Source of the DNA: Sulfuriflexus mobilis
Lineage (GTDB): Bacteria; Pseudomonadota; Gammaproteobacteria; AKS1
NCBI RefSeq assembly: GCF_003967195.1
Contig: NZ_AP018725.1
Location: 992,001 to 1,056,000, forward strand
Direction of reading: 5' to 3'
Length of the DNA: 64,000 nt
The first letter of the stretch is position 1. The number at the start of each line of letters is the position of its first letter. The notes beneath the pieces are model-generated. The model did no database searches. It worked only from the letters and a program-made list of their open reading frames with translations, and was not told where the DNA came from. The translations under genes were made by a program, and so were the position numbers. Shown piece by piece: positions 55,147 to 60,725 of the stretch.

Positions 55147-56316
55147 ATGGATGATATCGCCCTGATGAAGATCGCACTTGATTATGCAACAGATGGCGTT
55201 TTACTGCTATCCAGAAACAGTATGAGAATTGTTAGTGCGAGTAAATCTGCGTATGAGACGCTGGGTTATAGTGAGGCTGAACTCTGTGAGTTAGGCTTAT
55301 GTGATATACAAAAAAAATTATCAAAGGAGGATGTTAAAAACTACCTGTCATGCAATGCTGAGGATAACAAGCTTGACAAGGTAATTGAGGTGTTAATAAA
55401 AAAGAAGGACGGGGAGGTGTTTCTTGCCGAGATATCGATACGTGTTGCTAATGATGAGTATGCAACGGCTGTTATACATAATATTGAAGAAAGAAAGAAA
55501 ATTGAAATCGAGTTGGAGTCTTACAAAGATCATCTCGAAATGATGATAAGGGTTCAGACAGAAGACCTGGTGACTGCGCGAGATACGGCACTGTCTGCCG
55601 AAAAGGCCATGTCCAGCTTTCTGGCCAACATGTCTCATGAGTTAAGGACACCCCTGCATGGGGTGCTGAGTTTTTCGTCTATTGCGCTAAAGAAGATAGA
55701 TGTCTTGCCACAAGAAAAGATAAAAAGCTTCCTTTCGGAGATCCATGAGAGCGCAGAAACGCTGCTAAAGATATTAAATGACCTACTCGATTTATCAAAG
55801 TTGAAATCGGGGAAGATGGCATATTCCTATGGCGAAAAGAACATTGTGGATATTTTGGGACGGGTTATAAGAGAGATGGAGATAATTTGCGGATACAAAA
55901 ATATTTGTACAAATATACATATTACGGGAAATGAAAAGAAGATATCAATAGATGCGAACAGGATTCTACAGGTTTTCAGGAATATTTATTCAAATGCGAT
56001 AAAGTTTTCTGGCGAAAATGGAAACGTGGATTTTTATATTGATTATTCCGGGAGAGCAGGAGTTGGAATTGAGATTTGTGATGAGGGTGAAGGTGTTCCA
56101 GAAGACGATCTGGTGAGGATATTTGATCCGTTTATTCAGAGTGATGCGAATAGCAAAACACCGGGTGGGACCGGGCTGGGCCTGCCTATCTGCAAGGAAA
56201 TAATAGAGGTCGGGCATGGCGGAAGACTTGAAATGAATAACCGTGAAGGTGGAGGCGCCTGTGTATGTGTATTTATACCCACGGAGAGATTAAATAAACA
56301 TGCGCATGTGGAATAG
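55147..56316 (+). CDS. PAS sensor histidine kinase, cytosolic
   Basis: The 389-residue protein has a PAS domain (residues about 5-115: LDYATDGVLLLSRNSMRIVSA), a short coiled coil, the H-box FLANMSHELRTPLHGVLSFS, the N-box in RNIYSNAIKFSGENGNVDFY and G-boxes EICDEGEGVPEDD and GGTGLGLPICKEI. No membrane helices are seen, so the signal is cytosolic. The next gene encodes a response regulator fused to a kinase domain and is the likely partner. Confidence 0.9.
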   Translation: MDDIALMKIALDYATDGVLLLSRNSMRIVSASKSAYETLGYSEAELCELGLCDIQKKLSKEDVKNYLSCNAEDNKLDKVIEVLIKKKDGEVFLAEISIRVANDEYATAVIHNIEERKKIEIELESYKDHLEMMIRVQTEDLVTARDTALSAEKAMSSFLANMSHELRTPLHGVLSFSSIALKKIDVLPQEKIKSFLSEIHESAETLLKILNDLLDLSKLKSGKMAYSYGEKNIVDILGRVIREMEIICGYKNICTNIHITGNEKKISIDANRILQVFRNIYSNAIKFSGENGNVDFYIDYSGRAGVGIEICDEGEGVPEDDLVRIFDPFIQSDANSKTPGGTGLGLPICKEIIEVGHGGRLEMNNREGGGACVCVFIPTERLNKHAHVE

Positions 56317-56354
56317 AAATCGTTTTATGGATGGTATTTGAGGCGCTTAATTAT

Positions 56355-57407
56355 ATGACAAAAGTATTGATAGTCGATGATGATGAAAGGAATGTCAGGA
56401 TCCTTAGGGAGATACTTGGGGACGAATTTGATTTGTCCTATGCCATCGATGGCGAGCATGCCTTGTCAGTGGTCGAGGTGTTCAGACCGGATATTATCCT
56501 GCTTGACATTATGATGCCGGGGATTAGTGGTATAGAAGTTTGTAAAAAAATTAAATCAAGTTTAGCTAACAAAAATATTAAAGTGATTCTGGTTTCCGGT
56601 ATGTCAATGATTGAGGACCGTATCATTGGTTATGAGTCTGGTGCTGATGACTATGTTGTCAAGCCGTTTGATGATGGGGAGTTGCTGGCAAAAGTTCGTG
56701 TTTATGCAAGGCTAAAGTTTGCTGAAGAAGTTGATGAATTAAAAACAGCCTTTATCTCCTTGATTACACACGAAACAAGGACTCCGTTTAATATCATCAT
56801 GGGTAATGCGTCGATGCTGGTGAAAATGGAAGAAGATGAAGATAAGCGGTCAGGCTTGCAGGATATCTATATCGCAGCAGATATGCTGCATAAAAAAATT
56901 GAGAAAATCCTGTTTTTTTCAGGGCTGGTAACACAGGAGGATATCGACAAGAGACCCTGCAGTATTTTTGAGGCATATGAAACTGCTCTGGCCAGCCTCG
57001 GCCTTAATGAAAGCCAACTAAAGAGAGTAACACTTTCAGATGATTGTGATGATGTGATTAAAGCCGACCCTGTGATGTTGCAAAAATTGCTTGAATATCT
57101 AATCGATAATGCATTGCGTTATACAGATGCTGAAGTAAGTGTTTGTGTACTACCGGATGAGCAGAATTCAGACTATTGCCTAATACAGGTTAAAGACCAA
57201 GGCAAAGGCCTGCCAGAACACGAACTTATTAATTTATTTAGTGCCTTCCACAAGGAAGACCTGTTGAGTCATACGGAGGGACTGGGAATAAGTCTGGCAT
57301 TATGTAAAAGAATTGTTGAATTGCATGATGGAGCGATCTCGGCAAGGAATCTTGAAGATGGCGGTTTCATCATAAATGTACACTTGCCTGTGGAACATAT
57401 CCAATAA
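56355..57407 (+). CDS. Response regulator fused to histidine kinase domain
   Basis: The start at MTKVLIVDDDERNVRILREI (350 residues) is preferred to an ATG eight codons earlier. The receiver has the phospho-acceptor in DIILLDIMMPGISGIEV and the lysine in YVVKPFDDGELL. A HisKA-like segment follows (FISLITHETRTPFNIIMGNA) and an HATPase with LIDNALRYTDAEVSV and GLGISLALCKRIVE. It can both receive and pass a phosphate. It has no input domain of its own. Confidence 0.88.
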   Translation: MTKVLIVDDDERNVRILREILGDEFDLSYAIDGEHALSVVEVFRPDIILLDIMMPGISGIEVCKKIKSSLANKNIKVILVSGMSMIEDRIIGYESGADDYVVKPFDDGELLAKVRVYARLKFAEEVDELKTAFISLITHETRTPFNIIMGNASMLVKMEEDEDKRSGLQDIYIAADMLHKKIEKILFFSGLVTQEDIDKRPCSIFEAYETALASLGLNESQLKRVTLSDDCDDVIKADPVMLQKLLEYLIDNALRYTDAEVSVCVLPDEQNSDYCLIQVKDQGKGLPEHELINLFSAFHKEDLLSHTEGLGISLALCKRIVELHDGAISARNLEDGGFIINVHLPVEHIQ

Positions 57408-57433
57408 GACTAATATGCAGGTAAACATGAGGG

Positions 57434-57460
57434 TAATGTTGCCGGGCAGTGTGTCGATAT
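57434..57460 (+). promoter_or_regulatory. Candidate sigma-28 promoter for the chemoreceptor-like gene
   Basis: TAATGTTG (57434-57441) and GTCGATAT (57453-57460) match TAAAGTTT and GCCGATAA at six of eight bases each, with the correct 15-base spacing between TAA(A) and the -10. The start codon is 44 bp downstream. It is weaker than the motAB candidate. Confidence 0.3.
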
Positions 57461-57503
57461 ATCGCAGGATAGAAGGAAAAATCAGCTAAAGACCCTATTT
57501 TTT

Positions 57504-58715
57504 ATGAAGACACGTAACGGAAATACATTATTTGAGAAACGCTGGCGGCTGCGAAGGCTAATGCTGGTGTTTTTGCTATTGGTATTAACGTTGCTGTCGG
57601 TGTATTTCCTGGAAAAATCGGGGTATTTGCTGTCATCAATTCTGATTATAAGCGTTCTCGTCTTTATCTATGAGAGAGGTCTGACTAAGGCAAAGGTGGA
57701 AAATGAGCATCTGACCGGGGAGAGGGCGAATATTGAAGGTATGGTCATACAGGTTAAAGAAGATATGGCACTGCTGTCTGCAACAATAGCATCTGATAGC
57801 AATAATATTGATGCTGATATCGCCAGGATGATTATCTTAATTCAGGATGCATCAAATCTCCTTTCAGAAAGTTTCACTGAGCTAAGTAGCCACACTGCAC
57901 AGCAGCAAACAATCATGAACAGCCTTATGGGCAATGACGATAGCAGTCAATCTCTATCTATGCATGCATTCATAGAAGAGACACAGACTGTGATGAGATA
58001 TTTTATTGATATTGTGGTTGAAACAGGTAAGGAGAGTATGCGTCTTGTTTACAATCTTGACGATATATGTGAAAGCGTCAGTTCAATTGAAGGCTTGCTT
58101 GGGGACCTGAAAAATATTTCTGATCAGACAAATTTACTCGCTTTAAATGCAAGTATTGAGGCCGCACGTGCCGGAGAGGGAGGCCGGGGCTTTGCGGTTG
58201 TTGCGGATGAAGTGCGGAATTTATCTAGAACTTCAGAAAAATTTAGCAGCCAGATTAACGATGTGGTAAAAGAAACATCAATAGGTATAAAGTCTGCCAG
58301 GGATGCCATTAGTGAAATTTCATCCAGAGACATGAAAAAGGTGCTTGATTCCAAGCGCCGTGTTGAAGGTCTCACTGAAAAGGTGCTTACACTGCAAGCG
58401 GCATCAAGTGCGCATATACAGGATGTGTCGAAGATAGCTGGGGACATCGATGTTTCTGTGTCTAATGCAATTAGATCATTGCAGTTTGAGGATATCGTTG
58501 TGCAGTTATCACAATTTATCACCGATAGGATTAGGCTTATCAAGTCGGTTTGCGAAGGTTTTGAGGGTGCCTGTTCCGGCGATTTCACTGATCTAGAGCA
58601 AATAGCAGAAAGGATAAACAGCGCCAGCTCGGAAGGCATACAGCAAATTAAGCAGGCAAAAGGTCCAGACGTACCTCAGAAAAAAATGACGTCTGGTGAT
58701 GTTGACTTATTTTAA
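57504..58715 (+). CDS. Methyl-accepting chemotaxis-like signalling protein
   Basis: The 403-residue protein has two closely spaced membrane helices ([18 protein letters not shown] and [18 protein letters not shown], about residues 15-55) with only a few residues between them, so no periplasmic sensor domain. The signalling hairpin tip is intact: [20 protein letters not shown] and [15 protein letters not shown]. The coiled coil is short. A later segment, [20 protein letters not shown], resembles that of sensor-less MCPs. No CheR/CheB-binding pentapeptide ends it. Confidence 0.88.
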
Positions 58716-58735
58716 ACACATAGAAAGCTATTAAT

Positions 58736-59041
58736 ATGACAATTTCAGTTAATTACAATCAATCCGATGATAAGGCTTCCATAATTATTGGCGGCGATTT
58801 TAATTTCGATCAAAGTGCTGAATTCAGAACGATATTGCATGAGCTGTCAAACAAATCCGCTGAAATTATTATTGATATGGCAATGGTGACAAATATAGAC
58901 AGTTCGGCATTAGGTATGCTCCTGTTACTCAGGGAGAAATGCGGGGCCGGCGGAGCACCAATAAAAATAATTAAGACTACTCCTGAAATATTTGATGTTA
59001 TGAAAATGGCAAATTTTCACACCCTGTTTGATCTTGAATAA
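58736..59041 (+). CDS. STAS domain anti-sigma factor antagonist
   Basis: The 101-residue protein is one STAS domain. The phosphorylatable serine is in TNIDSSALGMLLLLRE (Ser56/Ser57), at the position of the SpoIIAA site. The DSSALGMLLLLRE sequence resembles HsbA-type antagonists of the Pseudomonas HsbR/HsbA system. It is 10 bp before the REC-PP2C-HATPase gene, the natural partner switching pair. Confidence 0.93.
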   Translation: MTISVNYNQSDDKASIIIGGDFNFDQSAEFRTILHELSNKSAEIIIDMAMVTNIDSSALGMLLLLREKCGAGGAPIKIIKTTPEIFDVMKMANFHTLFDLE

Positions 59042-59051
59042 AGATGTATCA

Positions 59052-60725
59052 ATGAAAAGAATCCTGATTGTAGAGGACTCTGATTCATCCAGGCATTTGC
59101 TGAAAAAGCTTTTGGTTAGATTTGGGTATGAGGTTATAGAGGCCGAGAATGGCAAGGCCGCTATATTGGCCTACACGGATAGCTCTCCAGACCTGATACT
59201 AATGGATATTATGATGCCAGTCATGGATGGTTATACCGCCACGAAGACTATAAAGCAGCTGTGCGGTGATGCATTCACTCCCATTATCATGCTGACCGCA
59301 ATGACCGATACCGAGTCGCTGGTGAAGGCAATTGAAGCGGGGGCAGATGATTACCTTACCAAACCTTACAATGAGGCAGAAATCAATGCAAAAATATTGG
59401 CGCTGGATAGGATACGCATACTGCATGACACCATTAATAATAATAACCGGGAATTATCTTTAAATAAGCAGCGCATTGAAACAGATCTTTCTATAGCAAG
59501 GCATATCTATAACAGTGTCCTCAGTCTTGGGGGTGAACAACATGGGTTTGTTAACAGTTATAGTAGTAATGATGCGTCATTTAACGGTGAGGTATTTATG
59601 GCGGCTCACACGCCGTCAGGTGGTGTGCATATAGTCATGGCAAGTTTTAATGGCGAAGGATTGTCTGCTGCAATCGGCGCGATCCCAACATCCGAGCTCT
59701 TTTGGAGTATGACAAGTAAAGGTTTTTCTGTTGCTGATATTGCTGATGAACTCAATAACAAGCTTAAGACGGTTATTCCGGACGAGATTAATTATAATTT
59801 CTGCTTTATCGAAATAGATAAACAAAGATCATCGCTGGGCGTATGGAATTCAGGTATGCCAAGTGTCGTAATGCGATCGCCTGATTCGGAAGGGGTTGTG
59901 CCTATTGGTTATTCTGCACCGTTTCTGGGGAAAGAGGAAATGCATCGGCGGCTGGATATCCATCAGATCAGTGGCAAAGAAAAAATATATATTTATAATC
60001 CTCCCTTTATTGGTCGTAATGAAGATAATAAAATTAACGAGCGAGTGTTTCATGAGGTAATTGCAGGTATTGAATTTTCAGAACTTGATATAAATAAGAT
60101 AAAACAGAAGCTTGATGAGGATGGCCGACTCCCCGTCGACAAGAGTTGTTTCTTGATGGTTGAAGTAGACCTGGATAAGGCCAAAGATACGTGGTCTATG
60201 GATAGTGGCCAGGTTTTAAAGCCAGGTATTGAGCCGGCCGACTGGCAGTCTTCTGTAACATTGGGTGCCCATTCCCTGCGTTCAGTTAATCCCGTACCGG
60301 TCTTACTGAACCTGATTATGGGTATGCAGGCGCCATTGGGCCACAAGGAAAGAATCTTTACCGTAATCAGTGAACTTTTTAATAATGCTCTCGATCATGG
60401 ACTGTTAAAGATAGATTCGTCCTTGAAGCTGACTCCGGCAGGCTTTGGTGAGTATTATTTGCAGCGCGAACTTCGTCTGAAGTCTCTCGAAGAGGGGAGT
60501 ATTTATATTGACATAAAGCATTGCAAGACTGCTGATGGCGGCAGATTTGAAGTAAAAATTGAAGATTCTGGCGATGGCTTTGATATTTCATCTGTATCTG
60601 AAGATATGGCAAGCAATATGTCACCATCAGGCCGGGGTGTGCCACTACTGAAAAATATGTGCTCAAACCTATTTTATAATGATAAGGGAAATATGGCCAC
60701 TGCTGTTTATGAGTGGTCATATTAA
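59052..60725 (+). CDS. Response regulator / degenerate PP2C / HATPase fusion (HsbR-like)
   Basis: The start at MKRILIVEDSDSSRHLL gives 557 residues. The receiver (residues 1-120) has Asp52 in DLILMDIMMPVMDG. Residues about 165-375 align with a PP2C/SpoIIE phosphatase (AAIGAIPTSELFWSM, ADELNNKLKTVIPDE, WNSGMPSVVM), but the metal-binding acids are replaced: NGE180 for GGD, ASFNGEG (198-203) for GDFTGHG, and YNPP (316-318) for the SDG. The C-terminal HATPase has an intact N-box ELFNNALDHG (441 on). The kinase is likely active; the phosphatase probably is not. Confidence 0.87.
   Translation: MKRILIVEDSDSSRHLLKKLLVRFGYEVIEAENGKAAILAYTDSSPDLILMDIMMPVMDGYTATKTIKQLCGDAFTPIIMLTAMTDTESLVKAIEAGADDYLTKPYNEAEINAKILALDRIRILHDTINNNNRELSLNKQRIETDLSIARHIYNSVLSLGGEQHGFVNSYSSNDASFNGEVFMAAHTPSGGVHIVMASFNGEGLSAAIGAIPTSELFWSMTSKGFSVADIADELNNKLKTVIPDEINYNFCFIEIDKQRSSLGVWNSGMPSVVMRSPDSEGVVPIGYSAPFLGKEEMHRRLDIHQISGKEKIYIYNPPFIGRNEDNKINERVFHEVIAGIEFSELDINKIKQKLDEDGRLPVDKSCFLMVEVDLDKAKDTWSMDSGQVLKPGIEPADWQSSVTLGAHSLRSVNPVPVLLNLIMGMQAPLGHKERIFTVISELFNNALDHGLLKIDSSLKLTPAGFGEYYLQRELRLKSLEEGSIYIDIKHCKTADGGRFEVKIEDSGDGFDISSVSEDMASNMSPSGRGVPLLKNMCSNLFYNDKGNMATAVYEWSY

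Follow-up and report, generated by a model that had tools for sequence, protein, structure and literature searches.

A receiver-kinase protein of Sulfuriflexus mobilis whose PP2C domain has lost its metal-binding acids and may persist as a regulatory pseudophosphatase

Organization of the Operon and Domains of the Focus Protein

The window analysed here, a stretch of 64,000 nucleotides from Sulfuriflexus mobilis, contains a run of five genes on the same strand: a sensor kinase, a receiver-histidine kinase, a chemoreceptor, a STAS protein and, in last place, the focus gene. Their features are the following (positions are those of the window; G001 and G002 are two other genomes of the genus):

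55147-56316, + strand: PAS-HisKA-HATPase sensor histidine kinase, first gene of the operon (Pfam); same order in G002, with L039:1262-2908 as partner
56331-57407, + strand: receiver-HisKA-HATPase hybrid protein (Pfam); orthologs in G001 and G002 43-46% identical and in the same place
57504-58715, + strand: MCP-type chemoreceptor with two N-terminal hydrophobic stretches (MCPsignal, 3e-27; syntenic orthologs)
58736-59041, + strand: single-domain STAS protein (Pfam STAS; alignment with relatives)
59052-60725, + strand: focus protein of 557 aa, receiver, predicted pseudo-PP2C and GHKL kinase
59052-59411, + strand: receiver domain of the focus protein, residues 1-120 (Pfam Response_reg, 1e-28)
59547-60179, + strand: PP2C/SpoIIE domain, residues 166-376, without the metal acids (Pfam, alignments and model fold)
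59661-59774, + strand: switch helices alpha1-alpha2, residues 204-223 and 227-241 (helices from the model)
60234-60719, + strand: GHKL domain of the serine-kinase/anti-sigma type, residues 395-556 (Pfam HATPase_c_2)

The focus gene is open throughout, from a methionine codon at 59052 to the stop codon at 60723-60725. The Pfam receiver match spans residues 4-115 of its product, the SpoIIE match covers residues 189-296 only, that is, the first part of the PP2C domain, and the HATPase_c_2 score of the kinase domain lies slightly below the family cut-off; no NCBIfam match was obtained for the PP2C part. A sequence-only reading of this locus had described a retained receiver and a retained kinase N-box, and both descriptions were borne out: the phosphorylation site D52, T82 and K104 are intact in the receiver, the N-box ELFNNALDHG is found at residues 441-450, and the GHKL catalytic residues are preserved (E441, N445, H449, D505, G507, G509 and G527-R528-G529). 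The alignment of the adjacent STAS protein with its relatives showed that its phosphoacceptor, Ser56, is also retained within the motif D55-S56-S57-ALG.

The same gene order occurs in the two other genomes of the genus, being complete in G002 and matching in G001 from the receiver-kinase onward, where the contig ends. The operon (55147-60725) is AT-rich, with a GC content of about 41% and GC3 values of 0.36-0.42 in surroundings of 52-55% GC, and is close in composition to the orthologous regions of G001 and G002 (37-38%); within the focus gene, GC3 is higher in the receiver-coding part (0.53) than in the remainder. The operon was possibly acquired from elsewhere.

Loss of the Metal-Binding Acids in the PP2C Domain

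Every metal position of the PP2C domain is altered in the focus protein. The motifs read FNGE (177-180), ASFNGEG (197-203) and YNPP (315-318), which correspond to the replacements D to E180, D to S198 and D to P317, and the aspartate pair near the end of the domain, a fourth metal motif, has become S365-C366. The first three losses had been recognized in the sequence-only reading, with the second and third motifs numbered from 198 and 316, and the fourth had been missed. In an alignment of 78 fused proteins (see below), aspartate occupies positions 180, 198, 317, 365 and 366 in 75, 75, 75, 77 and 76 rows, respectively, where the focus protein has E, S, P, S and C. Residue 202 in the catalytic loop, a histidine in the family, is also replaced, by glutamate. 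Three side chains of SpoIIE, D628, D746 and D795, have been described as putative metal ligands (PMC5468089), and these correspond by motif to S198, P317 and S365 of the focus protein.

Several trivial explanations were considered. A loss common to the genus, and with it the idea that close relatives might share the substitutions, was rejected, as the orthologs of G001 and G002, one of them encoded at L039:5663-7354, retain all four motifs (FNGD, GDFTGHG, SDG and DD). A scan of genome contigs yielded only these two known orthologs, and the remaining genome of the genus, G003 (80% complete), gave no match to the focus protein. A compensated frameshift or a sequencing error was rejected as well: relatives match the C-terminal half of the PP2C domain in the annotated frame only, the other frames of this half are full of stops, and its base composition by codon position is still coding-like. 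Displacement of the acids to neighbouring positions, an alternative that the earlier reading had itself raised, did not hold, either. E180 is a conservative replacement, there is no acid within two residues of S198 or P317, and the only acid close enough to be considered is D363, which precedes S365 by two residues and stands where relatives mostly have glutamine; one glutamate and one doubtful aspartate cannot rebuild a two-metal site. On these residues we infer that the focus protein has lost its phosphatase activity.

It could still be argued that the domain remains an active phosphatase, using a different, incomplete metal site built from E180, D363 and their neighbours, or no metal site at all. 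The conservative nature of E180 and the closeness of D363 to the lost DD pair speak for it. Against it, S198, P317 and S365 stand, by motif, where SpoIIE has its putative ligands (PMC5468089), the confidence of the full-length structural model reaches its minimum at residues 320-323, the former metal loop, and the domain outside the switch helices is less conserved than in every intact relative. We regard this explanation as highly improbable.

Distribution of Degenerate PP2C Domains in the Family

Matches were obtained in 147 of the 369 genomes of the class (Gammaproteobacteria) that were searched. From the fetched loci 79 fused proteins were extracted and 78 of them aligned, one short fragment being left out. 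All metal acids are kept in 74 of the 78 proteins and some are lost in the other four, among which only the focus protein has lost every one. The other three are:

L049:4763-6478: candidate independent pseudophosphatase of the same architecture, from another family
L124:3492-5312: partial loss
L125:3501-5165: partial loss

The motifs of L049 are FNNQ, GHINAQG, NSIS and DN, and no STAS gene lies directly upstream of it; the losses of PP2C metal acids in L124 (HGN, SRG) and L125 (GNVSERG) are partial. A quick tree without bootstrap was built on the receiver and kinase columns, in which some placements are unsure, above all that of L124, which sits on a long branch. The four degenerate proteins were placed apart, the focus protein being sister to the two intact orthologs of its genus (SH-aLRT 97). 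A single origin of the four losses was rejected: the tree requires four changes, at least three of which are forced by well-supported branches. Since the orthologs in the same operon of the two other genomes are intact, the ancestor of the focus protein was probably a bifunctional kinase-phosphatase.

Conservation of the Switch Helices and the Kinase

No close relative has the loss of the focus protein, and selective conservation was gauged against the intact orthologs and the family consensus. On a fixed topology, the length of the focus tip relative to the median tip was 1.04 for the receiver and 1.53 for the kinase, and rose to 3.67 and 6.47 for the N- and C-terminal halves of the PP2C domain, the last being the longest of 28 tips. 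These ratios indicate that constraint has been lifted from catalysis and not from the entire gene. The corresponding values for L049 were 2.16, 1.41, 5.13 and 5.53. In the C-terminal half of the PP2C domain the focus protein is 16-21% identical to its orthologs, which are 70% identical to each other.

Within the PP2C domain the divergence is uneven. Among the positions fixed in the orthologs, the focus protein keeps 20 of 25 (80%) in the switch helices versus 38 of 126 (30%) in the rest of the domain (Fisher P 6e-6), and L049 keeps 17 of 20 versus 27 of 76 (P 9e-5). Part of this contrast is ordinary and not peculiar to the focus protein, because in intact relatives, too, the switch is better preserved than other parts of the PP2C domain: active, more distant controls for the focus protein keep 72-80% in the switch versus 44-60% elsewhere, and those for L049 75-90% versus 67-76%. 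A comparison with the family consensus, from which the metal motifs were excluded, was also made. The switch of the focus protein keeps 0.88 of the consensus (intact median 0.82), above 40 of the 74 intact proteins, the rest of its PP2C domain keeps 0.41, below all 74, and its kinase keeps 0.84, equal to the intact median. Since the domain outside the metal motifs falls below all intact proteins while the kinase stays at the median, its divergence exceeds the ordinary one.

In L049 the retention of the consensus was 0.76 for the switch, 0.38 for the rest of the PP2C domain and 0.86 for the kinase; at a 50% consensus cut its switch falls to 0.65, below average, and the case for switch retention is weaker than in the focus protein. 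In L124 and L125 the switch is less well retained, with a kinase that is ordinary or better. In every one of the four degenerate proteins the kinase reaches, exceeds or comes close to the conservation of the intact median; it is thus conserved throughout this group, whereas clear conservation of the switch is seen in the focus protein. The earlier suggestion of a regulatory pseudophosphatase gains support from this selective retention of the switch helices, and we consider it the best-supported reading.

A Paralogous Cassette Without a PP2C Domain

The same genome (G000; loci L004 and L037) contains a paralogous MCP-STAS-regulator cassette at C1:1089433-1092906, some 38 kb downstream of the focus gene. 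It adjoins CheB and CheD genes, and genes for CheW, CheA and a CheY-like protein follow at a greater distance. The 309-aa regulator of this cassette carries a kinase domain and lacks a PP2C domain, and Pfam did not score its N-terminal part as a receiver. No counterpart of the cassette was found in G001-G003. Judging by their residues and domains, both regulators of this type in the genome would then lack a working phosphatase domain.

This cassette bears on a second explanation, namely that the PP2C domain of the focus protein is simply decaying: the protein would be a kinase with no need of a phosphatase, and the domain an inert linker in the course of being lost. In agreement with this, the entire domain outside the switch diverges fast and the island is AT-rich and possibly acquired, and the paralogous regulator, a kinase domain devoid of PP2C, would be the end point. 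On the other hand, the frame is still open despite the low identity of the C-terminal half, the codon-position pattern of this half is still that of coding DNA, and the switch is kept at the level of active enzymes in the focus protein and to a good degree in L049. Decay is the less likely account, and the paralogous cassette itself fits a domain retained as a relay and a domain in decay alike.

A third small STAS protein (C1:1103151-1103402, in L152), in which D-T-A replaces D-S-S, is encoded upstream of CheY-CheA-CheW genes, in a che cluster that also encodes a chemoreceptor with globin, several PAS, HAMP and MCP signalling domains (L152:180-3107). Among solved structures, a response regulator of about 300 aa from Leptospira, LvrC/SenB (PDB 9qih), matches the focus kinase domain and may perhaps serve as a model for the PP2C-less paralog.

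Structure Models and Comparison With Known Systems

The full-length model of the focus protein had a mean pLDDT of 87.5. A Foldseek search with it ranked RssB of P. aeruginosa and E. coli at the top, followed by Rv1364c, and a VIA-align search returned receiver matches only; a separate model of the PP2C domain was therefore built and used as the query. This model (AlphaFold2, pLDDT 87) matched Rv1364c, RssB, SiaA and SpoIIE at Z 19-22, the best match being Rv1364c (PDB 3ke6; Z 21.6, rmsd 2.9, 223 residues), and TAB1 structures at Z 14.4. The focus sequence is thus compatible with a PP2C fold, as modelled, although this is weak proof that the diverged C-terminal half folds, because the input alignments were full of active relatives. 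Compared with active PP2C/PPM phosphatases of the SpoIIE/RsbU branch, the focus protein shares the fold in the model and lacks the equivalents of the aspartates D628, D746 and D795.

The closest known systems are CrsR-CrsA and HsbR-HsbA. The che1 locus of Shewanella oneidensis encodes CrsR and CrsA, which control RpoS (PMC9855816); they share with the focus system the receiver-PP2C-kinase/anti-sigma order, a single-domain STAS partner and linkage to an MCP gene, and the crsRA genes resemble the paralogous cassette in lying in a che cluster (PMC9855816). CrsR differs in that its PP2C domain is described as removing phosphate from CrsA (PMC6482189), whereas this domain lacks the metal acids in the focus protein, and the focus cassette has two histidine kinases of its own in place of a che cluster. 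HsbR and HsbA, from the HptB pathway of Pseudomonas aeruginosa, agree with the focus system in domain order and in the number of the phosphorylated STAS residue, Ser56 (PMC6482189, PMC5085249). The HsbR receiver is described as switching the protein between kinase and phosphatase states towards HsbA (PMC5085249, PMC6482189); the active phosphatase state and the HptB input set HsbR apart from the focus protein, which has lost the phosphatase residues and has two histidine kinases in its operon. The label HsbR-type given in the sequence-only reading suits the architecture, and gene order and the che-linked paralog place the focus system closer to CrsR in context. Domain order, an adjacent STAS gene with its phosphoacceptor serine and the GHKL boxes are those of this type of switch, whereas the PP2C metal acids are missing, so that the focus protein would work as part of such a switch at most and not as a full bifunctional member.

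Other relatives share parts of this design. Rv1364c of Mycobacterium tuberculosis, an RsbU-RsbW fusion, also carries PP2C and then kinase in one chain, although the matched chain has no receiver and its title gives RsbU and RsbW domains. The eukaryotic pseudophosphatases TAB1 (PMC5468089) and PHLPP2 (PMC12002173) have a PP2C fold without a working active site, but belong to unrelated pathways and have neither a receiver nor a GHKL kinase. The alpha1-alpha2 switch couples regulation to metal binding in SpoIIE and RsbU (PMC5468089, PMC11418112), and in RssB it has been proposed to serve a non-catalytic output (PMC5468089). In E. coli RssB, a PP2C domain devoid of active-site residues has been described (PMC7226468); this domain follows a receiver, and its switch is used for regulation (PMC5468089, PMC7226468). 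The focus protein has the receiver, the apparent pseudo-PP2C and the switch helices of this type, and differs in having a kinase domain; RssB has none and is an adaptor for RpoS proteolysis.

A change of output of the RssB kind was weighed, in which the surface of the dead PP2C domain would bind a new partner (a sigma factor, an anti-adaptor or the STAS protein in its phosphorylated form), and binding rather than control of the kinase would be under selection. E. coli RssB has such a design with a receiver (PMC7226468, PMC5468089), RssB structures head the Foldseek ranking, and the genome encodes RpoS and FlgM, partners in the CrsR and HsbR systems. However, the absence of a kinase from RssB weakens the parallel, the structural rank mirrors domain order and fold and not common partners, and the focus sequence points to no partner. 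This explanation seems to us quite unlikely.

Proposed Mechanism

We favour, with a probability of roughly 0.6, a receiver-controlled kinase of the adjacent STAS protein in which the pseudophosphatase survives as a coupling module. D52 of the receiver would be phosphorylated or spared by a histidine kinase of the operon, the receiver and the helical linker would shift the switch helices of the dead PP2C domain, and their movement would decide whether the kinase domain acts on Ser56 of the STAS protein. Phosphate would be removed from the STAS protein by other means, either by another PP2C or by dilution and turnover; with dephosphorylation coming from elsewhere, the local switch would be one-way. 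The STAS protein as substrate, the signal path via the switch and the external reset are all put forward here as presumed steps. As a more general and tentative proposal, the PP2C domain of partner-switch regulators may have become a non-catalytic relay more than once, with the switch kept under selection for conveying the receiver signal to the serine-kinase domain, giving rise to one-way kinases whose reset has moved to another enzyme.

In the literature that we consulted on HsbR/CrsR-type proteins we found no settled account of how the receiver balances two opposed activities. The focus protein offers a natural case in which one activity has apparently been removed and the lever left in place; if its kinase still answers the receiver, a direct action of the switch helices on the kinase would follow, and the PP2C switch model would extend beyond phosphatases and RssB. 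The principle is known from RssB. Within the open-licence literature searched, its occurrence in a partner switch whose regulator carries a kinase and has selectively retained the switch helices appears to be novel; we found there no bacterial SpoIIE-type pseudophosphatase in a partner switch, nor was a class of one-way kinases found in the literature searched on HsbR/CrsR systems. The Pfam label of phosphatase is not always safe for such proteins, 4 of 78 being without some or all of the ligands.

Other PP2C Proteins

An external phosphatase resetting the switch is only a possibility. The genome encodes one intact SpoIIE-type receiver-PP2C protein (C1:2644219-2644926), whose gene adjoins a hybrid kinase and not a STAS gene, and no close ortholog of it was found in G001 or G002. 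It was discarded as an obvious replacement phosphatase: nothing ties it to the focus STAS protein, and its presence is not discriminating because genomes with intact fused proteins (G002, G036 and G037) also carry receiver-PP2C proteins. In another genome, G307, adjacent frames encode a receiver-PP2C protein and a kinase, which suggests that phosphatase and kinase can be separate proteins. Two paralogous fusions of a PP2C domain to a Ser/Thr protein kinase were also observed (L154:8578-10302 and L156:3062-4783), each near an apparent membrane-transporter gene.
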